A stretch of 52,915 bases of DNA from Methylococcaceae bacterium (lineage in GTDB: Bacteria > Pseudomonadota > Gammaproteobacteria > Methylococcales > Methylococcaceae): contig SCQD01000073.1 of assembly GCA_004299145.1 (NCBI GenBank), positions 1 to 52,915 on the forward strand, read 5' to 3'. The position numbers and the translations under genes were made by a program. How positions within the stretch are numbered: the first letter of the stretch is position 1; each line of letters begins with the position of its first letter. This document shows, one piece after another, positions 4,596 through 52,098 of this stretch. The notes below the pieces were generated by a model. The model made no database searches, had not been told where the DNA came from, and worked only from the letters and a program-made list of their open reading frames with translations.

Positions 4596-6890
4596 TCATG
4601 GCAACGCCCGAAGCGGGGCAGGATCGCCGCATCGCGCATACCGGCCCATGCTTTTTTCGAATTTTCCACCCCTTTTTACCTTGCGGTTTTCAAGGTATTT
4701 CAGCGCTACAAAAGATCCCCAGCCGACCAGCGCCATGCCGGCGATGAATGCGCCATAGGCCACGGGCCACGGAATGCCCTGGGTCATCATCGAAAATTCG
4801 GACATGCCGCCGATGCCCGCCAGAATATTGATGGGCATGAAGATCAAGCCGAACATGGTCAGTTGAGAAACGCGCCGGTTCTGGTTGATGTTGATGAAGC
4901 CGATCGTGGCGTCCATCAGAAAGTTGATTTTGTCGAACAAAAACGCCGTATGGCTGTTGAGCGAATCGATGTTGTGCAAGATTTGCTTGATGTCGTCAAA
5001 CTGCCCCGACGATAAAACCTTGCAGCGCAGCAAAAACAAAAGCGCGCGCTGGGTATCGAGAATATTGCTGCGAATGCGTCCGTTCAAATCCTCCTCTTCG
5101 GCGATATCCGCCAGGCTGGCGGCGGCTTCCTCGTCACTCATGGTTTCGCTCAGGACCTGGTGTCCCACTTTGCCGAGCGTGGCATAGATGTCTTCCAGCG
5201 AATCCGCCGCATATTCGATGACCGCGCCGTACAAATCGAGCAGCAGATCGTAGCAGTCGGACACGTAGCCCGGCTGGTTTTTGGCGCGGCGCCGCTGCAG
5301 CCGGAATACCGGCAGCTCTTCGTTGCGCGCGGAAAACAGAATGCCGTCGTGCAGAATAAAAACCACCGGAACGCTGCGCGAGTTGCCTTCACGGTCGAGC
5401 AGAAAATTCGAGTGCAGGTGGATTTCATCGTTTTCTTCGATGTGAAAACGAGAGCTGACTTCCAGATCGGTCGTATCGTCGGGGTCCGGCAGTTTCAGTC
5501 CAAAATGCCCCCCCACATAGCTCCGTTCCGCCGTTGTGGCATTGAGCAGGTCGATCCAGATCGGCTTGACGTTTTCCAGATCCTTGCGGCAGGTAATGGT
5601 TACCTGCCGCAGCTTGCCATGGATCAGCTCGAAAGCATTCATCCGGCTTTCGGCAAAGCTGGGCTCCCGGTTGCCCGCCAATTGTTTGCGCAGGGCGTCG
5701 GATACTTCCCAGAGAATGTCGTTTTCGCGTTCTTCCGGAACCTGTTTCCAGAGCAGCAACGCATCCTCGACCGGCATGGCTTCAAGGATGTTGCCGATTT
5801 CCGCGGATGACAGCTTGGCCAAGGCGTTCTGCAATTCGATCAGATGCTGTCTATGCACCATCGTTTCGATCAGGTTGTGACGCGGCATGTGCTGGGTATG
5901 CAGCATGCCCTCCACCAGTTTTTGCTTCTTGAGCAATTCGGCTACTTTTTCAAACGATGCTTCGTCCTTGGTGGGCGCGGGGGCAACGGGATCGACGTGC
6001 GTCATCAGATACAGCACGGGATGCCCGGCCATCACATTGAGCTTCGCTTGCCGGGCAATGGCGTGTCCTTCTTCAATCGTCAGGCCGCCGTCGATTTCCA
6101 AATGGACGTCGGCCAGTATCATGTCTCCGGTCTTGCGGGTTTTCAGGGCGTGCAATCCCAATACGCCAGGGGTCGCCAGAATTTCGGCGGCGATGCCGGC
6201 GATCTGATCCTCGGTTATGGCGCCATCCATCAGATCGTGCAGCGCGTGCCGGGTGAATTTTCCGCCCATCCGGGCAACCATCAAGCCGACAATCAGCGCC
6301 GCAATGGGGTCAAAAAACACAAAACCCAGTAAATTTCCCGCAATGCCCAGCGCCACCACCAGCGAAGAAGCCGCATCGGAGCGGGCATGCCAGGCATTGG
6401 CCACCAACAGGCTGGAGCCCACCCGTTCAGCGACGGCCAGCATATAGCGGAACAGCGCTTCCTTGGCGATTAAAGCGCTCAAGGCCACCCACAGGGCGAA
6501 CAGATGGACGGTGGGAATGGTTTCCGGCGCTTGCAGCTTATGGGCAGCCGACCAGATCATGCCTACCCCGACGGCCAGCAACAATCCGCCCAGCGCGAAG
6601 GACGCCGCGTTTTCATAGCGCTGATGGCCATAGTGGTGGTCTTCATCCGGCGCTTTTTTGCTGTGATGCACGGCCAGCAGCACGACAAAATCCGCCACCA
6701 GATCGGACAGGGAATGGATGCCGTCGGCAATCAACCCTTGGGAGCCGGATAGCAAACCCGCGATGATTTGGGCGATGGTCAGGGAAACATTGACGATTAC
6801 GCTGACCCAGGTACTGCGTCTGACGGAGGGCTCCCGTTCCGGGGGGGGCTGTTCGCCGTCGGGTTCCGGCAAATCTGGGGGGATGGGCAT
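4596..6890 (-). CDS. CDF cation transporter fused to MgtE_N-like and CorA-like domains
   Basis: This is one uninterrupted 764-residue frame. Residues about 25-300 form a cation diffusion facilitator: the transmembrane metal-site motifs are HSLSD (59-63) and HARSD (168-172), followed by the cytosolic domain (TRKTGDMILADVHLEIDGG, then MTHVDP). The His/Asp pairs are typical of zinc-type CDFs. Residues about 335-405 (HRQHLIELQNALAKLSSAEI onward, then EAMPVEDALLLWKQVP) resemble the helical N-domain of MgtE. Residues about 425-745 look like CorA, with an acidic helical stalk, two C-terminal membrane helices and GIGGMSEF (692-699) in place of the classical GMN signature. CDF proteins are normally about 300 residues and export metal, while CorA forms a pentameric uptake channel, so the combination is unusual. 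Substrate and direction are unknown. Confidence 0.85.
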   Translation of the reverse strand: MPIPPDLPEPDGEQPPPEREPSVRRSTWVSVIVNVSLTIAQIIAGLLSGSQGLIADGIHSLSDLVADFVVLLAVHHSKKAPDEDHHYGHQRYENAASFALGGLLLAVGVGMIWSAAHKLQAPETIPTVHLFALWVALSALIAKEALFRYMLAVAERVGSSLLVANAWHARSDAASSLVVALGIAGNLLGFVFFDPIAALIVGLMVARMGGKFTRHALHDLMDGAITEDQIAGIAAEILATPGVLGLHALKTRKTGDMILADVHLEIDGGLTIEEGHAIARQAKLNVMAGHPVLYLMTHVDPVAPAPTKDEASFEKVAELLKKQKLVEGMLHTQHMPRHNLIETMVHRQHLIELQNALAKLSSAEIGNILEAMPVEDALLLWKQVPEERENDILWEVSDALRKQLAGNREPSFAESRMNAFELIHGKLRQVTITCRKDLENVKPIWIDLLNATTAERSYVGGHFGLKLPDPDDTTDLEVSSRFHIEENDEIHLHSNFLLDREGNSRSVPVVFILHDGILFSARNEELPVFRLQRRRAKNQPGYVSDCYDLLLDLYGAVIEYAADSLEDIYATLGKVGHQVLSETMSDEEAAASLADIAEEEDLNGRIRSNILDTQRALLFLLRCKVLSSGQFDDIKQILHNIDSLNSHTAFLFDKINFLMDATIGFININQNRRVSQLTMFGLIFMPINILAGIGGMSEFSMMTQGIPWPVAYGAFIAGMALVGWGSFVALKYLENRKVKRGGKFEKSMGRYARCGDPAPLRALP

Positions 6891-6958
6891 ATCGGTTTTT
6901 CTCGCTCAGTAGACCCGCAGGATAAACCGTACGCCCCACGGGAATCCATAGCAAGGTT

Positions 6959-7150
6959 TTAGCCGTGCGCTCCGTCATGACGCACGGAGCGGAATCTGGA
7001 GCGGCAGGTGGATGCGGCGGTGCCTTCGATATAACCAGACGTCCACACCCAGTTGCGGGCGTCGCCGGGAGCATACGGCACCCCGGCTTGCATGCCCGCC
7101 ATGCCGGCCAGGTAGCCTTGCAGCCAGACGGCTGTATCCAGCTTACTCAT
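6959..7150 (-). CDS. Small Rmf/CrpP-like protein
   Basis: The 63-residue product begins MSKLDTAVWLQGYLAG and contains GMQAGVPYAPGDARNWVW followed by GYIEG. The spacing GY-x2-G ... PY ... R-x2-W-x3-GY-x2-G resembles the ribosome modulation factor/CrpP family, which are small basic proteins that hibernate ribosomes or modify small molecules. The ATG at 7150 is chosen because it begins the conserved part; the frame extends to 7189 without support. It lies downstream of a divergent promoter region and 68 bp upstream of the CDF-CorA gene on the same strand. The family assignment is by motif spacing only. Confidence 0.5.
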   Translation of the reverse strand: MSKLDTAVWLQGYLAGMAGMQAGVPYAPGDARNWVWTSGYIEGTAASTCRSRFRSVRHDGAHG

Positions 7151-7378
7151 GTCGTGCCCCCGTGTTTCGGGTTGTCGGGCCGGAGGCAAGTTCGGGATGT
7201 ATCAGGTTTTCAAGGGTGATGTGCAAGTTCAAAGCCGGCTCCCATGCTGATTGCGCTGGTATTCGACTCAAGGCTAAATCACCGATATTACGCGGGTGTT
7301 ACACGCTGCCGGTTACAATGAGCTTGCACCTTTGCGGCATTTCGTTATCATCCGGAATGGATACTATCAGGAAAAACC

Positions 7379-7621
7379 ATGACCGATACGTTGCAAACTC
7401 TCAAGGAAATCATGTCGGAGAAGACCGAAGTCAATGTGGATGACATTACGCTGGAGAGCACGCTGGAAAATTTGGAGCTGGATTCGCTGGATCTGTTCGA
7501 AATTGTTTTCAGCGTCGAAGACGCTTTCCATATCAAAGTGCCGGACAACCGGCTGGACATCAAAACCGTGCGGAATCTGGTCGATTTGATCGACGAGCTG
7601 GTTACAGCACAGCATGGTTGA
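7379..7621 (+). CDS. Acyl carrier protein
   Basis: This 80-residue acidic protein carries the phosphopantetheine attachment motif LELDSLDLFEIVF, with Ser36 as the expected 4'-phosphopantetheine site. It is specialised rather than the housekeeping AcpP (DSL is followed by DLFEIVFSVEDAF). The stop codon overlaps the start of the ketosynthase gene by 8 bp. This pairing implies that it delivers acyl chains to that enzyme, and perhaps onward to the MBOAT acyltransferase further downstream. Confidence 0.9.
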   Translation: MTDTLQTLKEIMSEKTEVNVDDITLESTLENLELDSLDLFEIVFSVEDAFHIKVPDNRLDIKTVRNLVDLIDELVTAQHG

Positions 7622-8849
7622 GCGGCGCGTTGCGGTGACCGGCATGGGGCTGGTGTCGCCGCTGGGCAGTACGCTGGACGCACTGTATGCCAATCTGCTG
7701 GCCGGTGTTTCCGGCATCCGGCGCATGCGGGCCGATTTCAGCGGGCGCCTGGAATGCAAAATCGCCGCCCAGGTGGATTTTGACCCGCTACAGTATTTTT
7801 CCAAAAGCAAAGCCGGCAGCCTCGACCGCGTCAGCCAGTTTGCGCTGGCGGCGGCCAGACAGGCCATCGACGATGCCGGTTTGAACCTGGATGCTGTCGA
7901 TAAGTCGCGCATCGGCATTTATCTGGGTACCGCCATGGGCGGCCAAACCACCAACGAAGAGGCTTGCGAGCGCGTTTATGGCCCACAGGGCGGCCGGCTC
8001 AGACCGCTGAGCGTGGTGATGGCGATGATGAACGCCGCCGCTGCGCAAATCGGCCTGGAGTTCGATTTGCGCGCCGCCAATCTTACCTTCAGCACCGCCT
8101 GCGCTTCTTCCGCCGTCGCCATCGGCGAGGCGTTCCACCTGATCCGGCGCGGTGGCACCGACGTCATGCTGGCGGGTGGTTCAGAAGCCCTGCTGACCCT
8201 GGCGACCATCAAGGCCTGGGAAGCGTTGCGTGCTTTGGCGACGGAGGATGCGGGCGATCCGGCTGCATCGTGCAAGCCGTTTGCCGCCGACCGTAGCGGC
8301 TTGGTGTTGGGCGAAGGTGCAGCCTTGCTGGTGCTGGAGGATATGGAGCACGCGGTGGCACGCGGCGCGCGCATTTATGCCGAACTCGCCGGATACGGCA
8401 GCAACAACGACTGTCGGCACATCACCCAGCCTTCCGCCGAAGGGCAGGCGGCCGCCATGCGCGCGGCGCTGAGCAGTGCCGGCCTGGCGCCGGGCGATAT
8501 CGGCTACATCAATGCGCACGGCACCGCCACGCCGCTGAACGACGCTGCTGAAACGGCGGCGATCCGCCAGGTGTTCGGGGCGGCGGCGGATTATGTGCCG
8601 GTCAGTTCCAGCAAATCCATGCACGGCCATTTGATGGGCGCGACGGCTGCCATCGAGCTGATCATCAGTATCCTGGCGCTGACGCGCGGCGTATTGCCCC
8701 CCACCATCAACCTGCATCATCCCGATCCCGCGTGCGATTTGGACTATGTTCCCAATATTGCCCGCAGCGGCGTTGCGCTACGCTACGTGATGTCCAATTC
8801 GTTCGCCTTCGGCGGCACCAGCGGCGTGCTGATTGCCGGGAAGGTGTAG
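7614..8849 (+). CDS. Beta-ketoacyl-ACP synthase, FabF type
   Basis: This full-length 411-residue thiolase-fold condensing enzyme has all catalytic residues visible: Cys163 in STACASS, His302 in NAHGTAT, and Lys334/His339 in SSKSMHGHLMGAT. It would condense malonyl-ACP with an acyl-ACP. The GTG-rich N-terminus MVERRVAVTGMGLVSPLGS is typical of FabF. It overlaps the dedicated ACP gene. No ketoreductase or dehydratase is adjacent, so the pair probably borrows the general fatty-acid machinery or makes a specialised acyl donor. FabF proper cannot be excluded. Confidence 0.9.
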   Translation: MVERRVAVTGMGLVSPLGSTLDALYANLLAGVSGIRRMRADFSGRLECKIAAQVDFDPLQYFSKSKAGSLDRVSQFALAAARQAIDDAGLNLDAVDKSRIGIYLGTAMGGQTTNEEACERVYGPQGGRLRPLSVVMAMMNAAAAQIGLEFDLRAANLTFSTACASSAVAIGEAFHLIRRGGTDVMLAGGSEALLTLATIKAWEALRALATEDAGDPAASCKPFAADRSGLVLGEGAALLVLEDMEHAVARGARIYAELAGYGSNNDCRHITQPSAEGQAAAMRAALSSAGLAPGDIGYINAHGTATPLNDAAETAAIRQVFGAAADYVPVSSSKSMHGHLMGATAAIELIISILALTRGVLPPTINLHHPDPACDLDYVPNIARSGVALRYVMSNSFAFGGTSGVLIAGKV

Positions 8850-8896
8850 CCGACGGTTAAGGGTTTGATCGCAAGCAATCCCCCCGGAGCCGCGCC

Positions 8897-9022
8897 ATGC
8901 ACGACCAAAACTTCAAAAACCTGATCCTGGATTACCCGCGCCAGGCGCTGGAGTTTTTTGCCGATTATTACGCCGATCTCGACAACGAAGAAATCCAGTT
9001 CGAAGCAGGGGCCAGGGATTAA
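8897..9022 (+). pseudogene. Truncated MHDQNFKNLILDYP-type (Rpn/PD-DExK-like) gene
   Basis: A 41-residue frame starts MHDQNFKNLILDYPRQALEFFADY and then stops. This N-terminus resembles a family of longer conserved proteins, often about 100-280 residues, related to Rpn-type or transposase-associated nucleases. Here only the first exon-sized piece remains and the frame diverges after about residue 25. It lies between the ketosynthase and MBOAT genes and may have come in as a mobile fragment. Recognition is from memory of the N-terminal motif; a genuine short gene is possible. Confidence 0.45.
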
Positions 9023-9069
9023 GAGTTAACCCCCAGCCCGTCGGAGCCAATTCAGGCCGTTATATAGCG

Positions 9070-10524
9070 ATGTTGTTCAACTCATACGAATTTATTTTCT
9101 GCTATCTGCCCGTCACGGCGGCGCTGTTTTTTCTCCTGGCGCAAAAAGGCGCCGTTCCTGCCTGCGCCTGGCTGACGTTCGCTTCACTGGCGTTTTACGG
9201 CTGGTGGAATCCGGCCAACCTGCCCATCCTGCTGGGCTCCATCGCTTTCAACTACCTGATCGGTCTGGCGATTTTTCGCTGGCCCACCCATGCGCGTCTG
9301 GCCTTGTGCATCGGCGTCGGCGTGGACTTATCCCTGTTGGCCTACTACAAATACGCCGTATTTTTGGCAAACAACCTGAACGCCTGGTTGAATCTGGGGT
9401 TGCCGGTCAGCGCGGTGGAACTGCCTTTGGGGATTTCCTTCTTCACGTTCACGCAAATTGCTTATCTGGTGGATGCCCGGCAACGCAAAGCGCGCGCAGC
9501 CAATTGGCTGCACTACGGCTTGTTCGTGACCTACTTTCCCCACTTGATCGCCGGGCCCATCCTGCACCACGGCGAAATGATGCCGCAGTTCGCCAAGCCG
9601 GGCACCTACCGCTTGAGTTACCGCCATCTCGCGCTGGGTCTGACGGTCTTTGTGCTGGGCTTGTTCAAAAAAGTGATCCTGGCCGACGGCATTGCGCCGC
9701 TGGTATCGCCGGTGTTTGCCGCCGCGCAGGGTGCGGACCAGCTCAGTTTCGCCGATGCCTGGGGCGCGGCGCTGGGCTATGCGTTTCAGCTCTATTTCGA
9801 CTTTTCCGGCTATTCCGACATGGCCATCGGCTTGTCTTATCTGTTCGGCATCGTACTGCCGCTGAATTTTTATTCACCCTACCGCGCCACCGGCATCATC
9901 CAGTTCTGGCGGCGCTGGCACATGACGCTGTCGCGCTTTCTCAAAGAGTATCTGTACATCCCGCTGGGCGGCAATCGGCACGGCGTGCCGCGCCGCTACC
10001 TCAACCTGTTTCTCACCATGCTGCTGGGCGGGCTGTGGCACGGCGCCAGCTGGACTTTCGTGCTGTGGGGCGCCATACACGGCGCGCTGCTGGCGCTTAA
10101 CCACGCCTGGCGCGCCGTGCGCGGCAAGCGCAGCTCCGGCTGGGCGGCGCGTGGCCTGTCCACGGCGCTGACCTTTGTCCTGGTCGTGCTGGCCTGGGTG
10201 CCGTTTCGCGCGCCGGATTTCACGACCACGCTCAAGCTTTGGTGGCTGATGTTCGCCGGCGACGGCGTGCACGGCTTCGCGGTGTTTTCCAGCCACGCCG
10301 GCGTTCCGCGCCTGATCGGCCTGGCTTTGATCGTGTTTTTACTGCCCAATACCCAGCAGTTCGTGCGTTTTCGCACCTTCAGGGCGGATCGCGACGGCCA
10401 GGGCGGCGGCGGCTGGCTGCGCTGGCGTCCCACGCCGGCCTGGGCGGCGTTCACGGCTTTGCTGGGCGTCATCGCCGTATTCGGTCTGACCGAAGTCAGC
10501 GAATTTCTTTATTTCAATTTTTAG
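9070..10524 (+). CDS. MBOAT-family O-acyltransferase (AlgI/DltB-like)
   Basis: This 484-residue polytopic membrane protein has the MBOAT core: PLGISFFTFTQIAYLVD, YFDFSGYSDMAIGLSYLFGI, FWRRWHMTLSRFLKEYLYIPLGGNR (split across 300-325), and the catalytic His in LGGLWHGASWTFVLWG. AlgI relatives move acetyl groups across the inner membrane to acylate polysaccharide. It starts MLFNSYEFIFCYLP, the usual AlgI-type N-terminus. The next gene starts 2 bp after its stop, so the two form an operon. The upstream ACP-ketosynthase pair suggests an acyl donor other than acetyl, which is inference. Confidence 0.9.
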   Translation: MLFNSYEFIFCYLPVTAALFFLLAQKGAVPACAWLTFASLAFYGWWNPANLPILLGSIAFNYLIGLAIFRWPTHARLALCIGVGVDLSLLAYYKYAVFLANNLNAWLNLGLPVSAVELPLGISFFTFTQIAYLVDARQRKARAANWLHYGLFVTYFPHLIAGPILHHGEMMPQFAKPGTYRLSYRHLALGLTVFVLGLFKKVILADGIAPLVSPVFAAAQGADQLSFADAWGAALGYAFQLYFDFSGYSDMAIGLSYLFGIVLPLNFYSPYRATGIIQFWRRWHMTLSRFLKEYLYIPLGGNRHGVPRRYLNLFLTMLLGGLWHGASWTFVLWGAIHGALLALNHAWRAVRGKRSSGWAARGLSTALTFVLVVLAWVPFRAPDFTTTLKLWWLMFAGDGVHGFAVFSSHAGVPRLIGLALIVFLLPNTQQFVRFRTFRADRDGQGGGGWLRWRPTPAWAAFTALLGVIAVFGLTEVSEFLYFNF

Positions 10525-27115: not shown

Positions 27116-27175
27116 GCATAGGGTACGCCGTGCGTACCTTCGACGGCGCTGAACGGTACGCATTGCGTACCCTGC
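27116..27175. repeat. Dispersed palindrome, copy B
   Basis: GCATAGGGTACGCCGTGCGT ... ACGCATTGCGTACCCTGC form arms around CTTCGACGGCGCTGAA. It is about 85% like copies A and C-E and more degenerate, in the gap between arsS and arsM. Confidence 0.75.
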
Positions 27176-32039: not shown

Positions 32040-32097
32040 GTAGGATACGCTGTGCGTACCGTTCGATGCCCTCGAAGGTACGCACAGCGTACCCTAC
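32040..32097. repeat. Dispersed palindrome, copy C
   Basis: GTAGGATACGCTGTGCGTAC ... GTACGCACAGCGTACCCTAC, centre CGTTCGATGCCCTCGAAG. It is nearly identical to copy A and lies 33 bp upstream of the prk start. Confidence 0.85.
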
Positions 32098-43038: not shown

Positions 43039-43589
43039 CCGTGCAGCGGAGTGCTTCAAATGTAGGGTACGCTGTGCGTACCTTCCGGCAAATGGTACGC
43101 ACAGCCTACCCTACCCTTTTGATATTGCTGCTTGGTGTGCTGGCATGGCCGCTGTGGACCAGCGCCGCCGCCATGGAACTGCGCCAGTTCGACGATCCGG
43201 CCAAACAAGCGCGCTACGAAGCCCTGATCAAGGAGTTACGCTGTCTGGTGTGCCAAAACCAGGCGCTGTCCGACTCCGACGCCGATCTGGCGCAGGATTT
43301 GCGCGACGAGGTATACCGCATCATCCAGAGCGGCAAAACCGATCAGGAAGCGGTGGATTTTCTGGTCGACCGCTACGGTGATTTCGTGCTCTACCGCCCG
43401 CCGTTCAATGCGCTGACCTGGCTGCTGTGGGGCGGGCCATTGCTGCTGGGCCTGGTAGGCTGCGGCATCGTGTGGCGCCAATGGCAACGCCACCGCAGCG
43501 CCACAGCTACGCCCATCCTCAGCGATGCCGACATCCAGCGGCTCCAACAACTTCGCGCCCAAGCGGATCGAACCGACGACCATTCATGA
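43035..43589 (+). CDS. ccmH: Cytochrome c maturation protein CcmH (CycL type)
   Basis: The 184-residue protein has the redox motif ELRCLVCQNQALSDSDADLA, an N-terminal hydrophobic segment (LLILLLGVLAWPLWTSAAAM) and a second helix (LTWLLWGGPLLLGLVGCGIV), which matches CcmH. It handles apocytochrome thiols with CcmG. The first 27 residues are encoded partly by palindromic repeat copy D (43062-43114). A normal family member would start near the hydrophobic segment, so the repeat has extended the N-terminus. An ATG at 43092 inside the repeat may be the original start. Confidence 0.92.
   Translation: MTVQRSASNVGYAVRTFRQMVRTAYPTLLILLLGVLAWPLWTSAAAMELRQFDDPAKQARYEALIKELRCLVCQNQALSDSDADLAQDLRDEVYRIIQSGKTDQEAVDFLVDRYGDFVLYRPPFNALTWLLWGGPLLLGLVGCGIVWRQWQRHRSATATPILSDADIQRLQQLRAQADRTDDHS
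43062..43114. repeat. Dispersed palindrome, copy D, inside ccmH
   Basis: GTAGGGTACGCTGTGCGTAC ... GGTACGCACAGCCTACCCTAC. It occupies codons 10-27 of the ccmH frame and stays in frame with no stop, unlike most intergenic copies. Confidence 0.85.
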
Positions 43590-44895: not shown

Positions 44896-45840
44896 TCAAC
44901 CGCAAACCCGATTCCGCCCTGCGGTCTTGGCCCGATAAAGCTGCACATCGGCGGCGGCGATCAGCGATACCGGCGTCACCGTGACGTCGCTGACCGCCAA
45001 CCCGATGGACACGGTGATGCCGGGCAGCGGCGCATGGTCGGGAAAACTGATCTTTTTATCGGCGGCTTTGCGGCGGATACGTTCCGCCACGGTAATCCCT
45101 TCTTCCTTGCCGGTATTCGGCAGCAGCACCAAAAACTCCTCGCCGCCATAGCGCACGCTGAAGTCATAAGGGCGCAGCGTGGTTTTCAAGACGTTGCCCA
45201 GCGCAATCAGCGCCTGATCCCCGCCGGGATGCCCCTGGCCGTCGTTGTAGGCTTTGAAGTGGTCCACGTCGATCAGCAACAGGCACAGCGGACGGTCTTC
45301 TTTTTGCGATTGTTCCAGCAGGCGGCCGAAAGCATTGTCCAGCCAGCGCCGGTTGTACAGCCCGGTCAGGCTGTCGACGTTGGCGTGACAGGACAATTCG
45401 AAAATGCGCGCCTGGTCTTCGATGATGCGCTGGGTGTTGGCCTTGATCCACCGGGTCATCAGCCTCAGCAGATTGCAGGCGATGGGGTTGGCGTCTTCCA
45501 CCAGCTGCTGGATGATGTCGCGGTGGATCGGCAATACCCGTGAAGGTGTTTTGGCGATGACGTAGGCGGATGGCTTGGTCCAGTCGATGACCGACATTTC
45601 TCCCACCGAGGTGCCCGCGCTCAGCTCGCGGATCTCCGGTGAATGCGGCGAGTTGAAATGCAGGCCGAAACTGCCGGACAGCAACAGGTAGACGTGATGG
45701 TTGTCGCGCTCCGGCGACAACAGGATTTCCCCCGCCGCCAGCCTCACCGGTTTGGATTGCTGCAAAACCATTTGCAAAATGGCTTCGGGAGCGTTGCGGA
45801 ACAGCTCGGTATTCGCGAGGTCGGTGCTGCTGAGGTTCAT
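44896..45840 (-). CDS. Diguanylate cyclase with N-terminal cNMP-binding-type domain
   Basis: The 314-residue protein has an N-terminal cyclic-nucleotide-binding-type barrel (GEILLSPERDNHHVYLLLSG, SVGEMSVIDWTKPSAYVIAK) and a C-terminal GGDEF domain with active-site YGGEEF. An RPYD (RxxD) feedback site lies five residues before it, so the enzyme should be product-inhibited. The Arg that contacts the cNMP phosphate in PRSA-type loops is not present (KPSA), so ligand binding is doubtful. The gene starts 2 bp after the stop of the cNMP protein upstream, so they are co-transcribed. It makes c-di-GMP. Confidence 0.9.
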   Translation of the reverse strand: MNLSSTDLANTELFRNAPEAILQMVLQQSKPVRLAAGEILLSPERDNHHVYLLLSGSFGLHFNSPHSPEIRELSAGTSVGEMSVIDWTKPSAYVIAKTPSRVLPIHRDIIQQLVEDANPIACNLLRLMTRWIKANTQRIIEDQARIFELSCHANVDSLTGLYNRRWLDNAFGRLLEQSQKEDRPLCLLLIDVDHFKAYNDGQGHPGGDQALIALGNVLKTTLRPYDFSVRYGGEEFLVLLPNTGKEEGITVAERIRRKAADKKISFPDHAPLPGITVSIGLAVSDVTVTPVSLIAAADVQLYRAKTAGRNRVCG

Positions 45841-45842
45841 GG

Positions 45843-46316
45843 TTACTCCATGATTTTGCCGTGCGCCATTCTATGGCGCCGACTGATGTATTTGCCGAGT
45901 TTCATCAGTACTTTGATGGCCAGTTGCGGGTTTTCCTTGATGAGCTGATTCAGCTGGTCGCTGGTCAACACCAGCAAGTCGGTTTCTTCGAGCGCCACCA
46001 CTGAGGCCGAACGCGGTTCGCCGTCGAACAGCGACATTTCACCCAGCACTTCACCGGCGTGCATCACCGCGAGTTGTACGCGGCGCTTGCTGACCAGATC
46101 TTCTTTGTAAACTTCGACGCGTCCCTTGACGATGATGCCCAGAAAAGAAGCGCGTTTGCCTTCGCTGATGATGATGGCGCCTTTGGGGGCCGTCAACAGG
46201 TCCATGTATTTAACCAGGGCCTGAACGTCGGCCCATTCAAAATCGCGCGCCCATTTGCTGTCGTCCAGCAGTACGCATTTTTCGTGGAGAGTGGCTTTTT
46301 TCTTATTATCCGTCAT
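45843..46316 (-). CDS. Stand-alone cyclic-nucleotide-binding protein
   Basis: The 157-residue single-domain protein has a CRP-type beta-barrel: GAIIISEGKRASFLGIIVKG, VLGEMSLFDGEPRSASVVAL, with the phosphate-binding Arg in EPRSASVV intact. There is no helix-turn-helix, so it is not a classical CRP. It lies directly upstream of the cNMP-GGDEF gene and downstream of a class III cyclase gene, which suggests it reads the cyclase product and acts on its neighbour. An alternative ATG six bases upstream (46322) exists. Confidence 0.85.
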   Translation of the reverse strand: MTDNKKKATLHEKCVLLDDSKWARDFEWADVQALVKYMDLLTAPKGAIIISEGKRASFLGIIVKGRVEVYKEDLVSKRRVQLAVMHAGEVLGEMSLFDGEPRSASVVALEETDLLVLTSDQLNQLIKENPQLAIKVLMKLGKYISRRHRMAHGKIME

Positions 46317-46348
46317 GATCATGCCAGCCTGAAATGATTGTTTGCTCG

Positions 46349-46489
46349 TTCCCAACCTCCAGGTTGGGAATGCGGTTCAGAAGCTCTGGCTTCTTGTCCC
46401 GTCGGGAGTTGCTGCGATGCCGGCCTCTTGTCAAGGAACTGGAAGCCGGAGCTTCCAAGGCCGGGTTCCCAAGCTGGAGCTTGGGAACC
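46349..46489. repeat. Composite palindrome of TTCCCAA-type REP units
   Basis: TTCCCAACCT-CC-AGGTTGGGAA (46349-46370) and GGTTCCCAAGCTGGAGCTTG (from 46464) are mirror units, with smaller stems (AGAAGCTCTGGCTTCT and GGAAGCCGGAGCTTCC) between. A related unit is at 48842-48891. It separates the cyclase gene from the cNMP-binding gene. Confidence 0.75.
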
Positions 46490-46547
46490 AGCCGAATCCA
46501 GCGATAGCCGTGCGGCACAGGGGGCTGGTTTCAGCGTCGCCGATGGG

Positions 46548-46625
46548 TTTCAAGAAGCCTTAGTCATTCCGCGAGGACGCGGCGGCTTTCAAGAAGCCTT
46601 AGTCATTCCGCGAGGACGCGGCAGC
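46548..46625. repeat. Tandem pair of a 39-bp repeat
   Basis: TTTCAAGAAGCCTTAGTCAT continuing to CGCGAGGACGCGG occurs twice in tandem, at 46548-46586 and 46587-46625, with one base different. Inverted relatives are at 51741-51783 and about 51988-52050. Confidence 0.85.
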
Positions 46626-46656
46626 TTTGGTGGGCGGTGCCCACCCTACGATCCGC

Positions 46657-48792
46657 CTACTTGCGCAACAACACGACTAGGCTGCCGGTCTCCCCCCCAG
46701 CCAGCCGCCGGGCATGATAAACCGCAAGCGGATCGTCGGGATGCTTTTCCGCCAATCGCGCAAATGCCGCAGTGGCTGCCGGCGCTTCCGCTTCCATCAG
46801 GGCATAGGCTTCCAGGTAGGCCTGGGTGGATTCCGCTTGCGCTTGTGCTTCCGACAGCGGTTCAAACGCGGTCACCGCCTGGGTTTTGCCTTTCACGATC
46901 AGCCGGCCCATCGGCCTGCCCTTGAAGTCTGGGCATTGCGCCACGGTGGCGCCGCTGACACAGGTGGCGGTGCCGAATTGCGCGTTGATCCTTTCCAACC
47001 GTGCCGCCAGGTTCACGGCATCGCCCAGCGCTCTATAGTCCAGCATCGCCTGGCCGCCGAAATTGCCGACCAGCACGGTGCCGGTGTTGACGCCGATGCG
47101 GGTGCGGCCAAACGGGATGCCCAACTCTCTTTGCCGCCGGCTGAATGCATCGGCAAAACGCCCCATGGCCAGGGCACAGGCGACGGCCCGCGCCGCGTGG
47201 TCCGGCTGCGGCAACGGCGCCGAAAACATCACCGCCACCGCGTCGCCGGTAATCCGATCCAGCGTGCCGTCGTAGCGGAAAGCGATGCCTATCATGCCGT
47301 TCAGGTATTCGTTCAACAAGCCCGACAGCACGTCGGGCTGGTGCTGTTCCATCAGCGGCGTGAAGTCCGCCAGGTCCGTCATGACGAAAGAACACTCGCG
47401 GTAAACGCCGCCCAGTTCCAGGTGTTCCGGGTGGGCTTGCAGGTATTTGACCCGGTTCGGCGACACGTAGCGCGAAAAAGCGTCGCGTATCCAGCGCTGC
47501 TCGCGCTCGGTACGCAAATAGCGCGGCACCAGCATCGCCACGAATAACAACACCAGCACGCGCACCGGATAGAGGGGGTCGAGCATCAGGCGCCAGGCCT
47601 CAAACAGCCACAGCGCAAACGCGAACAGCCCCGTTATCGTCGCTGCCGCCAGCACCACCGACCATACCGGACGAAAGCGCGCCAGCAGCAGCGACAGCAG
47701 TCCCCACGCGCCGATCAACAGCGCCGTCACAAAATCGTTTTCCCAGCCCGGGCGCTGCAGGTAGGTGCCGCTCAACAATTGCTCCAACAGCTGGACGTGA
47801 CCTTCGACGCCGGGGATGACTTCGCCCAGCGGGCTGAACGTGGTATCGCCCAAACCCTTGGCGGTGGCGCCGATGAAGACGACGTGGTCCTTGATCAGCC
47901 GCCGCTCCACCGTGCCGGCCAGCAGGTCTTGCGCGGAAATATAGCGCTCGGTCGCCAGCGGTCTGAAGTGCAGCCACACCCGTCCATCCGGCGCGGTCGG
48001 CAAAAAACCGCGCCGCCCGAGGTCTATGCCCTGGATGCCCGATGCCAGGCCGTGCCGCGCCGCATCGGGCGGCGAGACTTTCAGCGTGAGCTGGCTCAAG
48101 CCCAGCGATACCCGTAGCGCTTCCAGGCCCAGGCTGGGATAGAGTTCGTCGCCGATGTCGTGCAGCAACGGCAGGGCGCGCAACACGCCATCGTGGTCGG
48201 GCGCCAGCGATACCACGCCGCCGCCCTGCGCGGCGTTATCCAGCAGCGGCAAATTGGCGATGCCGCCCGCATAGCGCGGCAGCCAGGCGCGCGCATCGCC
48301 GCCGAAGCTGAGAAAACGCGCTTTGGCATGAGGCAGGGCCATGGCTGTGGCGACGGGCTCGGCGGGAAAACCGGTGACCACCGGACCGCGCTTGAAGCTG
48401 TCCGCCAGCAGTTGGTCATGCGCGGGCAGCTTTCGCAGCATCTCGCCCAGGGCCGGATGCTCCGGCCAGTGCAAGGCCAGTTGCTCGGGAGAACTGCGGT
48501 CCGCTTCCGCCAACACAATGTCGAACACCACGACTTGGGCGCCCCACTCGAACAGCCGGTCCACGATGCGCGCCAGCAGGGTGCGCGGCCACGGCCACTG
48601 GCCCAGACTGTTCAGGCTGGCGTCGTCGATGGCGATGACCCGGACCGGCACGGCGTCCTGATAGCCGGCGGGGTGCAGCGCTTGCAGTTGATCGAAAGCG
48701 ATTTCGCGGATGCGTGCCCTGAAAGGCGGGTCCTGCAACTGCACGAACAGGGCCAGCACGATGATGGTCAAGGGCAACAGGTTGCGCATCAT
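46657..48792 (-). CDS. CHASE2-domain class III adenylate/guanylate cyclase
   Basis: The 711-residue membrane protein has an N-terminal helix, an extracytoplasmic CHASE2 domain (residues about 25-330: VRVIAIDDASLNSLGQWPWP, VVVFDIVLAEADRS, VVFIGATAKGLGDTTFSPLG), several transmembrane helices (about 355-430), and a catalytic domain (about 465-640) with metal site FVMTDLADFTPL, RITGDAVAVMF and DYRALGDAVNLAARLER. A cNMP is the product; ATP versus GTP cannot be read. It follows the FecR gene and precedes a cNMP-binding protein and a cNMP-GGDEF protein. Confidence 0.93.
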   Translation of the reverse strand: MMRNLLPLTIIVLALFVQLQDPPFRARIREIAFDQLQALHPAGYQDAVPVRVIAIDDASLNSLGQWPWPRTLLARIVDRLFEWGAQVVVFDIVLAEADRSSPEQLALHWPEHPALGEMLRKLPAHDQLLADSFKRGPVVTGFPAEPVATAMALPHAKARFLSFGGDARAWLPRYAGGIANLPLLDNAAQGGGVVSLAPDHDGVLRALPLLHDIGDELYPSLGLEALRVSLGLSQLTLKVSPPDAARHGLASGIQGIDLGRRGFLPTAPDGRVWLHFRPLATERYISAQDLLAGTVERRLIKDHVVFIGATAKGLGDTTFSPLGEVIPGVEGHVQLLEQLLSGTYLQRPGWENDFVTALLIGAWGLLSLLLARFRPVWSVVLAAATITGLFAFALWLFEAWRLMLDPLYPVRVLVLLFVAMLVPRYLRTEREQRWIRDAFSRYVSPNRVKYLQAHPEHLELGGVYRECSFVMTDLADFTPLMEQHQPDVLSGLLNEYLNGMIGIAFRYDGTLDRITGDAVAVMFSAPLPQPDHAARAVACALAMGRFADAFSRRQRELGIPFGRTRIGVNTGTVLVGNFGGQAMLDYRALGDAVNLAARLERINAQFGTATCVSGATVAQCPDFKGRPMGRLIVKGKTQAVTAFEPLSEAQAQAESTQAYLEAYALMEAEAPAATAAFARLAEKHPDDPLAVYHARRLAGGETGSLVVLLRK

Positions 48793-48841
48793 GGTGGAAG
48801 GACGCTTGGCACGGTTACGTTTTGGCGCGTCGGCTTGGGCT

Positions 48842-48891
48842 GGTTCCCAAGCTCCGCTTGGGAACCCATGCCGCGAAGCTCCGGCTTCGCG
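48842..48891. repeat. TTCCCAAG-type REP hairpins upstream of the cyclase
   Basis: GGTTCCCAAGC ... GCTTGGGAACC (48842-48866) and CGCGAAGCTCCGGCTTCGCG (48872-48891). The sequence is close to the units at 46349-46489. Confidence 0.75.
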
Positions 48892-48977
48892 TTAATTTCA
48901 GAGCGCTACGATATAACGCCGTGTTCCGGTGAGAAGCCGGAGTTTCAAGACGGAGTTTCAATCACACTCTCCCCGGC

Positions 48978-50246
48978 TTAGGGCCCAAGCCGTCCTCCCG
49001 GTGGTGGCGACGGACCCGGCGGAAAACCGGGCGGCGGACCGGGGAACTGGCCCGGTGGTGGTCCTTGCGGTGGGCCGGCAGGCGGACCCGGCGGCGGGCC
49101 TTGCGGCGACACAGGCGGTGGCGGTGGCAAACCGGGCGGCGGAGGTGGAGGCGGTGGATGCTTGGCGGCACCGCCCGAAAAATTCTGCAGCAACGGCGGC
49201 GGCGGACCACCCGCGCCGGCACCCGGCGCGCCAGGGCCACCGATGCCGCCGCCCGGCAGCATCGGGCCGGCTCCACCGCCCGGTAGGGGAAAGCCGCCCC
49301 CGCTACCCGGCAACGGGGGCGGGGCGCCACCCGGCAGCGCTCCACCAGCGCCCCAAGCAGGCGGGGGTAGTCCGGCTCCCGGCGGAGGCGGGGGCGGTGG
49401 GACACCCGGTGGCGGTGGTGGCGGTGCTCCAGGCGGGGGCGGAGGTGGCGGAGTACCCGGCGGAGGCGGTGGCGCTCCGGGCGGGGGCGCACCCGGCGGC
49501 GGAGGCGGCGGGGTGCCCGGTGCCGGTTGCTGACCAGAGCCGACGGGTTTGGCGGAAGTTCTGCCGGAGACCTGTCCCAGCGGGTCCAGCTTGATGTCAC
49601 TGAGCATCGGCATCACGGCCGGCCCGGCCACCAGGGCGTTCTGGCCGGCGGCGATGCTGAGCAGCCCTGCGGTATTGGACAGTTCCACGCGACCGGCCAG
49701 TACGCTGACGTTCAAGGCATGATCGAGCAGGGCCGAATACTCGGTGCCGCGCACCGCGAGATTGGCCAGGCGGGTCTTCAGCAGATAGTTGGCTTTGTCC
49801 ATGCGCCCGGTCAGCGTGTGCATCAGCCCGTCGATCAGGCTGAACTGCGCCCGATCCGCCGCGTTGCCGTTGTATTGGTACTCGTCCAGCGCAAAGCGCG
49901 TGTCCCGGTACAGGGTGAGCAGGCTTTCGTCGCTGAAGCGAATCTGCGTTTGACCGTCGCCGGTGACGATGGTATCGCCGCTGTACAACGGCATTTGCCG
50001 CGTGGCCGCCAGGGTCTGGCCGGCGCGTAGCACCTCGACTTGACCGGACAGCGCCAGAATCGCGCCGGCGCTGTCCAGCGCCCACGCCGCCGGGGTAAAA
50101 GCCAGCAGCCAGACGATGATCCACAACCTCGGCGCGGATAGCCCGGTCTCGTCTTCCCAATGCCCCGTTGTAGGGTACGCTGTGCGTACCTTGAGGCGCT
50201 GAAGGTACGCACAGCGTACCCTACTCCACAGGCTAGCGTTTTTCAT
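48978..50246 (-). CDS. FecR-domain protein with a long Pro/Gly-rich tail
   Basis: The 422-residue protein starts at an ATG (50246) that overlaps the end of the outer-membrane gene. The first 25 residues contain palindromic copy E; a signal-type segment follows (IIVWLLAFTPAAWALDSAG). The FecR domain (about 57-230) has SGQVEVLRAGQTLAATRQMP, SGDTIVTGDGQTQIRFSDES and LANLAVRGTEYSAL. From about residue 240 to the end the chain is almost only Pro and Gly (PPPPPPGAPP, GPPAGPPQGPP). A Pro-rich tail could span the periplasm or contact a partner, which is inference. A TTG start closer to the signal is possible. Confidence 0.8.
   Translation of the reverse strand: MKNASLWSRVRCAYLQRLKVRTAYPTTGHWEDETGLSAPRLWIIVWLLAFTPAAWALDSAGAILALSGQVEVLRAGQTLAATRQMPLYSGDTIVTGDGQTQIRFSDESLLTLYRDTRFALDEYQYNGNAADRAQFSLIDGLMHTLTGRMDKANYLLKTRLANLAVRGTEYSALLDHALNVSVLAGRVELSNTAGLLSIAAGQNALVAGPAVMPMLSDIKLDPLGQVSGRTSAKPVGSGQQPAPGTPPPPPPGAPPPGAPPPPPGTPPPPPPPGAPPPPPPGVPPPPPPPGAGLPPPAWGAGGALPGGAPPPLPGSGGGFPLPGGGAGPMLPGGGIGGPGAPGAGAGGPPPPLLQNFSGGAAKHPPPPPPPPGLPPPPPVSPQGPPPGPPAGPPQGPPPGQFPGPPPGFPPGPSPPPGGRLGP
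50170..50224. repeat. Dispersed palindrome, copy E, inside the FecR gene
   Basis: GTAGGGTACGCTGTGCGTAC ... GGTACGCACAGCGTACCCTAC, in frame in codons 8-26 of the FecR gene. It sits between the start codon and the signal peptide. Confidence 0.85.
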
Positions 50247-51585
50247 TGGCAAACTCCCATCGTAATTGCAGCATGAAAGCGTGGCGCTCGTAATCCCACA
50301 GCGCCGTATTGGAAACGTTGCGAATGTAGTTGTATTGCGGCATGACATGCCAGTTATCAGCCAGGCGATAATCGGCCAGCGCCACCAGGCTGTATTGCTG
50401 TTCCTGGCGGTGAATAAAGTACAGGCTGTCCCGGCCCAGGTAATGGCGCGCTTCGAACAGCCCGGCCACGGAAAACGCCAGATCGGCGTTGACCGGCAGG
50501 CCGGCGGCCAGGTTAAGCCCCCATACGTCATAGCTGTAGCCGTTGTAAGCCATGTTTTTCATGTCTTCCGCCCCGCCATATACGCCATATTGGAACGACC
50601 AGGCACGTTCCGGGGTAGCGGGGTGCTCGCGGCTGACGCCGCCGATTTTGCGCGCGGCGTTGTTGGCCGAGTACACCGGATAATCCAGGTCGATATACTG
50701 AAAATAGCCGTTGAGCCGCGTTTGATCGCTGAACGGGTGCACCCAGTTCAAGCGCCCGCCCAGCGAGCGCCGGTAAAACGCATCGCCGAAACGGAAACCC
50801 TGCGTCAGCAGCGAGGCGCCGTAATAATCCTGGCCGGCGCGCCGGATCACGCCCACATCCAGGTTGCCGTAACCCACGTTCACGTCGTTGCGCTGGTAAT
50901 TGAAACCCTGGCGCACGTTGGCGTTGCCGGCCAGCCAGGTGTCGTCGCCTATCTGCTTGCGCAGCGTCAGACCCGCCGCCAGTTGCGCCACGCCGTCGTC
51001 GTCCTGCCGCGCCTTGCCCACCGCGACGCTGCTGGAACTATTGGTCAAAGCCAGAATGCCGAGGCCGGGGCCGCTGGTGACGTTGCTGTCCCAGCCCAGG
51101 CCGGCGAGTAAATGGCCTTGCCAGACCAAGGGTTCCAGCGCCGGTTTGGCGGCGAAAACGGCGCGAATTTTATCCAGCCATGCCTGCCGGGCCGCGCCCA
51201 AAGGTTGGTTTGCCAAAGGTTGCAGCAGCTTATCCACCGCTGGCGCATCGCTGCGTTCGGCGTAAATCAGCGCGCTTTGCAAGCGCGCATCGAGATGATC
51301 GGGCGCCACGATCAATACGCGCTCGAAGGCAAACAACGCTGGTTCGCTACGGCCGGTTTGCAATAGCGCCGTGCCCAGCAGGTAATCGAAATCCGCCTGA
51401 CCGGCGTAGCCCTGCCAGTCGCGTTCCAGCAGCGTCAGCGCCTGTTCGGCCTGACCGGCCTGCAGCAAACGTTGCGCCTCGTCCAGCCGTGGGGTCTGCG
51501 TTTCGGCAAAAACCGGGGGGCACAACAATTGCCCGGCGAAAACCAGGATTGCCAAAACGGTTTTCGACCAACTGCGCCTGATCAT
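50233..51585 (-). CDS. SLAM/DUF560-like TPR-beta-barrel outer-membrane protein
   Basis: The 450-residue secreted protein has a signal peptide (AILVFAGQLLCPPVFA), an N-terminal TPR segment (DEAQRLLQAGQAEQALTLLE and QTGRSEPALFAFERVLIVAP), then alternating amphipathic strands from about residue 165 on (LLAGLGWDSNVTSGPG, TLRKQIGDDTWLAGNANVRQ, HAFMLQLRWEF) ending in an aromatic-rich strand. This fits surface lipoprotein assembly modifier (DUF560) proteins. It is first in the run of five minus-strand genes, overlapping the FecR gene by 14 bp. Confidence 0.8.
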   Translation of the reverse strand: MIRRSWSKTVLAILVFAGQLLCPPVFAETQTPRLDEAQRLLQAGQAEQALTLLERDWQGYAGQADFDYLLGTALLQTGRSEPALFAFERVLIVAPDHLDARLQSALIYAERSDAPAVDKLLQPLANQPLGAARQAWLDKIRAVFAAKPALEPLVWQGHLLAGLGWDSNVTSGPGLGILALTNSSSSVAVGKARQDDDGVAQLAAGLTLRKQIGDDTWLAGNANVRQGFNYQRNDVNVGYGNLDVGVIRRAGQDYYGASLLTQGFRFGDAFYRRSLGGRLNWVHPFSDQTRLNGYFQYIDLDYPVYSANNAARKIGGVSREHPATPERAWSFQYGVYGGAEDMKNMAYNGYSYDVWGLNLAAGLPVNADLAFSVAGLFEARHYLGRDSLYFIHRQEQQYSLVALADYRLADNWHVMPQYNYIRNVSNTALWDYERHAFMLQLRWEFANEKR

Positions 51586-52098
51586 CGGCTGGGTATTGAT
51601 AAAGGTCTCTCCCGATGACTTTCAGTGTGCTGTAAAACAAATCATGTTGATCGGCTGGGTGAGTCGGCGAAACCGTTCAGCCCCCCCCCCTTTTTCAAAG
51701 GGGGGAATCTGCGAAGGGGCCAAACGCTTAAGAGTCAGCGAAAGCCGCCGCGTCCTCGCGGAAATACTAAGGCTTCTTGAAGCCCAGTATAACCACGCTT
51801 TATTGCTGGGCTATGAGGCTTGCCATGGGGCCATGATATAGACCCGCGAGCCAATAAAGCGACAGTTATTGCACAGATTTATCGGCATCAATTATGGTAG
51901 GCGATTACTCTCTCGCAGCGCTCGTTCCCCATCCCCGGTAATGCCGTGCCCCATCTCTCCGAGTCATGGTACGTAGGGCGGAACGCGAAAGCCGCCGCGT
52001 CCTTGCGGACAGCCGCCGACGCTAGTCGGAATTATTAAGGCTGCTTGAATCACTAAGGCTTCCTGATAGCGGTTCCGCCGGGTTTGCTGCGAAAAAAT
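51586..52098. other. Gene-free region with scattered repeats
   Basis: A poly-C stretch with a GGGGGG partner lies at about 51680-51710 (C-rich, then TTTTTCAAA, then G-rich). Two inverted copies of the 39-bp repeat sit at 51741-51783 and about 51988-52050. No gene motif was found on either strand. Confidence 0.6.
51741..51783. repeat. Inverted copy of the 39-bp repeat
   Basis: AAAGCCGCCGCGTCCTCGCG then TACTAAGGCTTCTTGAA, the reverse complement of the tandem units at 46548-46625. Confidence 0.8.

Follow-up and report, generated by a model that had tools for sequence, protein, structure and literature searches.

The window analyzed here, a 52,915-nucleotide stretch of DNA from a Methylococcaceae bacterium, is one whole contig (C97) of a 4.64-Mb genome assembled in 353 contigs. 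Between positions 44896 and 51585 its minus strand carries five neighbouring open reading frames (ORFs), all of them uninterrupted, which encode, in order of transcription, a tetratricopeptide repeat (TPR) protein with a predicted outer-membrane β-barrel, a FecR-domain protein, a CHASE2 class III nucleotide cyclase, a lone cyclic nucleoside monophosphate (cNMP)-binding protein and a GGDEF-type diguanylate cyclase with its own cNMP-binding domain (cNMP-GGDEF). Comparison with related loci shows that the barrel protein, the FecR protein and the CHASE2 cyclase form a recurring set, beside which varied cNMP-binding proteins, referred to below as receivers, are enriched. An earlier reading of this DNA (the original prediction) had described the five genes as an ordered relay from the outer membrane to cyclic di-GMP (c-di-GMP); their one-strand neighbourhood over this span is borne out by the ORF coordinates and Pfam domains; the barrel and fecR genes do overlap by 14 bp, and the last two genes are 2 bp apart. 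The two inner gaps are long, with 185 bp between fecR and the cyclase gene and 301 bp, including repeats, between the cyclase and lone cNMP genes. Gene calls throughout are ORF picks combined with profiles (OMP, FecR, cNMP, CHASE2 and CYC) grown from the window proteins, and not annotation.

The first gene (50233..51585, minus strand) encodes a 450-aa protein for which a SLAM/DUF560-like outer-membrane identity had been proposed. Its TPR_19 match (26.9 bits) exceeds the Pfam cut-off of 25, but its SlipAM match (PF04575, the former DUF560; 21.0 bits) falls just below the curated cut-off of 22, which leaves it SlipAM/SLAM-like rather than a member of that family; its placement in the outer membrane is a prediction from the weak barrel match and the TPR region. 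Of 11 related barrel proteins, four match SlipAM with an E value of at most 0.05, the lowest being 2.9e-9. A single-sequence AlphaFold2 model of the window protein has a mean predicted local distance difference test (pLDDT) score of 38, and the matches listed from a PDB search with the family alignment were to TPR proteins.

The second gene (48978..50246, minus strand) encodes a 422-aa protein with a FecR domain (PF04773; 48.6 bits against a cut-off of 24), a signal-peptide-like stretch in its N-terminal part and a Pro-rich C-terminal half, a feature shared by the tails of several relatives. FecR is the only domain matched and the N-terminus is signal-peptide-like, which does not fit an anti-sigma factor of the FecIRA type; no sigma factor is encoded by the other four genes of the locus, the rest of the window not having been screened for sigma genes.

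The CHASE2 cyclase and its purine-recognition site

The third gene (46657..48792, minus strand) encodes a 711-aa protein with CHASE2 (187.6 bits) and Guanylate_cyc (57.2 bits) Pfam domains, which retains the class III metal-binding residues Asp473 and Asp517 and the transition-state residues Asn594 and Arg598. In class III cyclases a Lys paired with Asp, Thr or Ser at the purine-recognition positions selects adenine, and a Glu paired with a small residue selects guanine. The window cyclase has Arg513 and Arg587 at these positions, aligned to the Lys and Thr of CyaB (PDB 3r5g), and thus carries neither the canonical adenylate cyclase pair nor the Glu that guanylate cyclases have at the Lys position. 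Because the Arg/Arg pair fits neither rule, the choice between cyclic AMP (cAMP) and cyclic GMP (cGMP) is not readable from the sequence, and the original proposal that the signal is converted to one of these two nucleotides is not supported.

Among the 85 catalytic domains in the loci analyzed, the purine-site pair is Arg/Arg in 33 (including the window), Lys/Thr in 29, Lys/Ser in nine and Asp/Arg in eight, the rest being mixed. The 30 Arg/Arg rows that are longer than 540 aa and have a CHASE2 match form one clade in an 81-row tree, with a Shimodaira-Hasegawa-like approximate likelihood ratio test (SH-aLRT) support of 99, and the cyclases of the window and of locus L277 are sisters (SH-aLRT 98); the tree was built by a quick search with no bootstraps. 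Other arrangements of the site are seen in the CHASE2 cyclases of L116, L117, L118, L119 and L121-L124, where the pair is Asp/Arg and the usual Lys/Asp charges are swapped, and in the cyclases of L104, L110 and L125, where an Arg is paired with Asn or Ala.

In pyrimidine cyclases base choice has been assigned to Y50, D94 and R97 of BcPycC and to F60, K104 and F109 of AnPycC (PMC11224242; here and below, statements on published systems refer to the accessible parts of the cited papers). PADLOC matched its PycC models to the catalytic domain of the window cyclase (best 3e-14) and its PycTIR models to the cNMP barrels (best 1.3e-13), as may happen with any such domain; the five proteins contain no TIR domain detectable with Pfam, and the locus lacks the pairing of PycC with PycTM or PycTIR that defines a Pycsar system. 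It is a long shot, and the most novel of the ideas considered here, that the product of the Arg/Arg CHASE2 clade is neither cAMP nor cGMP but another cyclic nucleotide, such as a cyclic pyrimidine, serving as an everyday envelope signal that species-specific, cNMP-gated receivers read. If this were true, such a messenger would have a housekeeping, non-defence role with exchangeable outputs (kinase, lipase, permease, transporter and diguanylate cyclase). For the 30 or more enzymes of this clade, the Arg/Arg purine site makes a sharp and testable prediction, namely a changed choice of substrate.

A recurring putative sensor core with varied candidate cNMP receivers

Orthologues of the cyclase were collected from order, class and phylum samples, an initial scan of genome contigs with the window cyclase having given no match, and their neighbourhoods were taken; the Arg/Arg clade as analyzed comprises 31 loci. 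In the counts for these loci, genes beyond the available flanks are scored as lacking, and less than 4 kb of flank is available to one or both sides of the cyclase in L281, L285, L287, L288, L290, L295 and L301-L303, and about 4.1 kb in the window and L236. With 7 kb from the cyclase as the limit, 22 of the 31 loci have a FecR protein. Eight (window, L236, L237, L240, L277, L287, L288 and L297) have both a barrel protein and a FecR protein within this distance, a locus being counted as barrel-type by a match to our own profile, not Pfam, and the two proteins of L237 being short ORF fragments. The close packing of the first two genes also recurs: they overlap by 13 bp in L277, L287, L288 and L297, and lie 11 bp apart in L236.

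The gene order of L277, the locus with the sister cyclase, is like that of the window. On one strand this locus encodes a barrel protein (29% identical to that of the window over 421 alignment columns), a FecR protein (38% over 232 columns), the cyclase, a SulP-STAS-cNMP protein and a small cNMP-like protein; the last is below the Pfam cut-off and only distantly related to the lone cNMP protein of the window (25% over 59 aa). Barrel protein, FecR protein and CHASE2 cyclase are thus a recurring set. The same cannot be said of all five genes: among the mapped loci only L287 repeats all the families, in another order, and a conserved five-gene set is rejected. The five-family co-occurrence originally envisaged therefore holds for the core, with a similar order in L277 and an enrichment of cNMP proteins beside it, but not for the complete set.

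Several variants were seen among these and other CHASE2 loci. In L240 (genome G114, 6420-10387) barrel, FecR, CHASE2 and cyclase regions follow one another in order and are split over several frames, through decay or sequencing error. Of the 23 non-barrel Arg/Arg loci, 10 (L283, L286, L289-L294, L296 and L298) have an HD-GYP-labelled ORF no more than 7 kb from the cyclase, and nine of these 10 also have FecR and OmpA-type genes; the REC-GAF-HD-GYP architecture was checked with Pfam in L293 only. CHASE2-GGDEF fusions are present in L112, L114 and L115; in L112 and L114 the gene immediately before the fusion is fecR, an arrangement that would lead from FecR straight to c-di-GMP. Genes for two-partner secretion (TPS or ShlB) lie near the CHASE2 cyclases of L098, L108, L238 and L239, accompanied by FecR in L108 and L238.

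The barrel-type loci are also those at which cNMP proteins accumulate. Six of the eight (window, L236, L237, L277, L287 and L297) have a cNMP protein at most 7 kb from the cyclase, against 0.53 expected (P 2e-6), as do two of the other 23, against about 1.5 expected (Fisher p 0.0009 for the difference), with p-values that assume independent loci although the loci are related. Expected counts derive from 99 cNMP matches (4.31 per Mb) in six of seven genomes, G672 being omitted; among the 23 other loci, the cNMP protein counted in L281 lacks a Pfam match at the 0.001 level and is 37% identical over 147 aa to the small protein of L277.

The nature of the receiver, judged by its Pfam domains, differs from locus to locus. 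A cNMP-patatin protein with an NTE-type domain is encoded 21 bp from the cyclase in L237, the cNMP protein of SulP-STAS type in L277 is a sulfate permease, and in L287 a cNMP-GGDEF gene lies 258 bp from the cyclase; the window has both its lone cNMP protein and its cNMP-GGDEF enzyme. A cNMP-Ser/Thr kinase (126-1625) is encoded beside fecR in L236, and an MMPL-cNMP protein is separated by one gene in L297. The barrel of the L236 kinase, which is encoded near an Arg/Arg cyclase, has a Leu in place of the phosphate-binding Arg. Outside the Arg/Arg clade, the cNMP proteins beside CHASE2 cyclases are CRP-type (L104 and L125), a cNMP-rhodanese (L243) and a 154-aa lone protein (L108). A putative sensor core with varied cNMP receivers enriched beside it is therefore what the comparison reveals, and the listings of open-licence papers that we searched showed no earlier description of an Arg/Arg clade or of exchangeable cNMP receivers.

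Two candidate receivers at the end of the locus

The lone cNMP protein (45843..46355, minus strand) has at most 170 aa when read from a TTG, and is likely to start at one of the in-frame ATG codons at 46322 and 46316. It matches cNMP_binding with 76.6 bits, and its phosphate-binding cassette is intact (GE106 and PR115SA), in agreement with the PRSA Arg originally noted; among solved structures, the one closest to it in sequence is 3gyd, a cyclic-nucleotide-binding protein. The possibility that the base-reading residues of partner barrels shift to match the Arg/Arg cyclase was considered and rejected, since no clean pattern emerged: the pair is Ala164-His165 in the window, Val-Ser, Val-Ser, Thr-Ser and Thr-Thr in homologues of the lone protein, and varied in other partners.

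The last gene (44896..45840, minus strand) encodes a 314-aa enzyme with cNMP_binding (42.7 bits) and GGDEF (145.9 bits) Pfam domains. Its GGEEF active site, its RxxD site (RPYD, 223-226) and the lack of the barrel Arg, which is replaced by Pro90, had all been read correctly; Glu81 is present in the barrel. The AlphaFold2 model has a mean pLDDT of 83.9 and a GGDEF part that matches solved GGDEF structures, and the matches listed from a structure search with it are all to GGDEF domains. In the PDB search, 4KG1, the structure of the cNMP-GGDEF protein XC_0249 of Xanthomonas campestris, was not among the matches listed; a 129-aa chain named 'Diguanylate cyclase' (5h5o) matched at E 0.044, and no claim is drawn from it.

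Relatives of this enzyme were sampled from 52 loci, drawing on 80 of at least 593 relatives in one listing and on 29 of 36 class-level rows, and gave 50 distinct proteins; L126 and L334 encode identical proteins, as do L131 and L342, and the split or partial copies of L338 and L341 stand outside the 50. All 50 have the GG-E/D-E motif and 48 the RxxD site. The phosphate Arg is found in none of their barrels (Pro in 32, Ala in 10, Thr in five, Ser in two and Cys in one), and the acidic residue of the cassette is kept throughout, as Glu in 48 and Asp in two.

These comparisons bear on the original argument that the enzyme's own barrel lacks the key Arg and the lone protein may therefore be the real receptor. 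Taken further, the lone protein would be the sole binder and would switch the diguanylate cyclase by contact, and the enzyme's own barrel would be dead or serve dimerization. The intact Glu106 and Arg115 of the lone protein, the 2 bp between the two genes and the general lack of the Arg in cNMP-GGDEF barrels are all in keeping with this proposal. Against it stands XC_0249, which binds cGMP with a dissociation constant of 0.293 uM (17.9 uM for cAMP) and responds with raised diguanylate cyclase activity, the residues named for cGMP in the main text being F73, E90, H98, N145 and E146, with no Arg among them (PMC3770947). Since none of the 50 barrels has the Arg and XC_0249 binds cGMP through named non-Arg residues, the step from a missing Arg to a lone receptor is weak. 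The retention of the acidic cassette residue also argues against a dead barrel, and in L287 the cNMP-GGDEF gene adjoins the cyclase with no window-type lone protein beside it; the 154-158-aa cNMP ORF of that locus runs off its contig and is similar to the C-terminal end of the L297 MMPL-cNMP protein. We consider the lone protein unlikely to be the sole receptor; judged by their sequences, both it and the barrel of the cNMP-GGDEF enzyme are possible receivers.

A relay model and its alternatives

Our observations suggest a model, to which we assign a probability of about one half, in which the locus is a sensor-transmitter core with plugged-in cNMP receivers. The predicted outer-membrane barrel and the periplasmic FecR protein would pass a surface or envelope cue inwards, by a putative contact of FecR with the periplasmic CHASE2 domain of the membrane cyclase. 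The cyclase, if active, would make a cyclic mononucleotide of whichever kind, and the cNMP-domain proteins at the end of the locus would bind and read this product. One of these receivers is a diguanylate cyclase, and its activation would end the relay in c-di-GMP; the lone cNMP protein would either partner the cNMP-GGDEF enzyme or serve as a further receiver. The model draws on the gene order, the intact catalytic and GGDEF residues, the recurrence of the core, the enrichment of cNMP proteins and two separate recruitments of a cNMP-GGDEF gene, and it has precedents in XC_0250/XC_0249 and in the NsrA barrel acting on CHASE2 cyclases, both described below. Of the relay first proposed for this locus, the recurring core and the enrichment of cNMP partners beside it are supported, and the fixed five-gene set, the named nucleotides and the lone-receptor argument are not.

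The locus joins two known kinds of system, a CHASE2-FecR cyclase module and a cyclase-to-cNMP-GGDEF pathway. In the X. campestris cGMP-to-c-di-GMP pathway the gene of the class III cyclase XC_0250 is linked to that of XC_0249, as the corresponding genes, about 0.8 kb apart, are in the window; in that pathway c-di-GMP synthesis rises once the nucleotide has bound to the barrel, as it would in the relay proposed here. XC_0250 is a CYC-plus-TPR protein with Leu and Ala at the transition-state positions, unlike the CHASE2 membrane cyclase of the window, and the accessible text describes no barrel or FecR gene, both of which the window has (PMC3770947). A gene cluster of Campylobacterota encodes a CHASE2 adenylate cyclase, a FecR outer-membrane protein, a TPR protein and a phosphodiesterase, for which the authors propose one pathway, and the link of a CHASE2 cyclase with FecR-domain and TPR proteins, as in the window, is therefore already published for that group; the accessible text mentions a cAMP phosphodiesterase and no cNMP effector or diguanylate cyclase, the reverse of the window, in whose five proteins Pfam detects no phosphodiesterase domain, and it has no discussion of the residues at the purine site (PMC9239204). 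In Sinorhizobium meliloti the outer-membrane barrel NsrA acts upstream of the CHASE2 cyclases CyaD1, CyaD2 and CyaK, and FecR-domain and TPR proteins are among the targets of Clr, which, unlike the receivers of the window, is a CRP-type regulator (PMC13001267, PMC5498481). The Burkholderia BiofilmReg operon likewise encodes a LysM-FecR protein beside a CHASE2 sensor, here a histidine kinase, so that the output is a two-component system and not a cyclase (PMC5192318). Direct control of a c-di-GMP enzyme by a cNMP barrel is also seen in the cNMP-EAL protein Bd1971 of Bdellovibrio, which degrades c-di-GMP and for which the accessible texts mention no linked CHASE2 cyclase (PMC6717892, PMC8846402).

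The locus holds repeats at two places. A palindromic repeat with the half-site GTAGGGTACGCTGTGCGTACC, for which the whole assembly has 173 half-site-pattern matches on both strands (0 for a control pattern), occurs within fecR with two exact half-sites (50170..50224), read through in frame between the ATG and the signal-peptide-like stretch; further positions in the window are 20371, 27118-27175, 32040-32097 and 43062-43114. The gap between the cyclase and lone cNMP genes holds repeats from 46464 to 46625, namely a palindrome around GGTTCCCAAGCT (46464-46489) and two tandem 39-bp units (46548-46625) that recur upstream of the barrel gene (51744-51782). Downstream of the five genes lie, convergently, a redoxin-like gene, CcmH and a CycH-type gene of cytochrome c maturation, and on the other side, from the barrel gene to the end of the contig, the longest ORF encodes a 97-aa ribbon-helix-helix protein. 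Rfam gave no match at gathering thresholds, and promoter and terminator scans gave signals near the shuffled level.

A number of observations weigh against the relay. The cyclase and cNMP genes are separated by the 301-bp, repeat-bearing gap, and this gap and the repeat in fecR may weaken expression or export; in particular, the insert lies upstream of the signal peptide and FecR may be poorly exported. The S. meliloti FecR-domain gene smc02177, a member of the cAMP regulon, is reported to be dispensable for signal perception (PMC5498481). XC_0249 reads guanine through N145/E146, where the window enzyme has, according to an inferred alignment, Asn135-Thr136, and this Asn-Thr pair does not support cGMP specificity of its barrel (PMC3770947). 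The core loci L240 and L288 have no cNMP protein in the flanks examined (the L288 contig ends beyond fecR), and two of the six receivers are not on the strand of the whole core, that of L236 being opposite in strand to its cyclase and that of L297 lying on the opposite strand beyond an intervening gene. Only two of the 50 cNMP-GGDEF proteins have a CHASE2 cyclase within 10 kb in the 717 kb of flanks, that of the window at 817 bp and that of L287. With 80 CHASE2 matches in 288 Mb as the background density, two such cases within 1 kb among 50 have a chance probability of 0.0004; this feature was the reason for choosing the window, and once the window is left out a single case in 49 remains (P 0.027). 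The seven nearest relatives of the window enzyme are 47-60% identical to it, one of them being interrupted by an internal stop, and none has a CHASE2 cyclase in the flanks examined.

These observations could also mean that chance has placed two independent units side by side, the core signalling to another receptor in the cell and the cNMP pair answering another cyclase. The repeat-filled gap, the 48 enzymes with no CHASE2 cyclase within 10 kb in the flanks examined and the different surroundings of the nearest relatives would all be expected. The genome has 16 cNMP matches and six CHASE2 proteins that could supply other partners, and no CHASE2 cyclase lies in the 10-16 kb examined around the lone protein's closest homologues (L086, L088, L093 and L101). 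What makes this explanation somewhat unlikely in our view is the enrichment of cNMP proteins at barrel-type loci, the same order in the sister locus L277 and the separate cNMP-GGDEF gene beside the cyclase in L287. The window and L287 enzymes fall in different supported subclades of the tree, and a cyclase-adjacent cNMP-GGDEF gene has therefore arisen at least twice. The coupling of CHASE2 cyclase and cNMP-GGDEF enzyme is thus suggestive, and is not that of a conserved pair. Looser associations were also seen. About 10 kb of L363 (9384-19499) contain a cNMP-GGDEF gene and, 5.8 kb from it, the cyclase domain of a class III ORF that has no CHASE2 label, with two small cNMP ORFs between them; an Arg/Arg cyclase and an orthologous cNMP-GGDEF enzyme are encoded about 28 kb apart in G114, and on separate short contigs in G639 (L302 and L340).

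The repeats raise the further question of whether the locus is decaying, the fecR copy and the repeat-filled gap having cut the path from the outer membrane to the cyclase. The exact repeat displaces the signal-peptide-like stretch of FecR, so that it starts only at residue 41; in five of six homologous FecR proteins the stretch is close to the start, and the remaining ORF, of L236, has a long unrelated N-terminal extension. All five frames are nevertheless open, every catalytic motif checked is intact and the repeat preserves the fecR frame, and we think decay improbable.

The locus bears on two wider questions, which cues CHASE2 and FecR domains sense and how, outside a few models, a signal travels from the outer membrane to cyclic nucleotides. 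A fixed sensing core with varied receivers makes this a system that can be separated gene by gene. If the diguanylate cyclase of the window answers the cyclase beside it, the locus would provide a further direct case of cyclic-mononucleotide-to-c-di-GMP signalling after XC_0250/XC_0249, now with a membrane sensor in the group.

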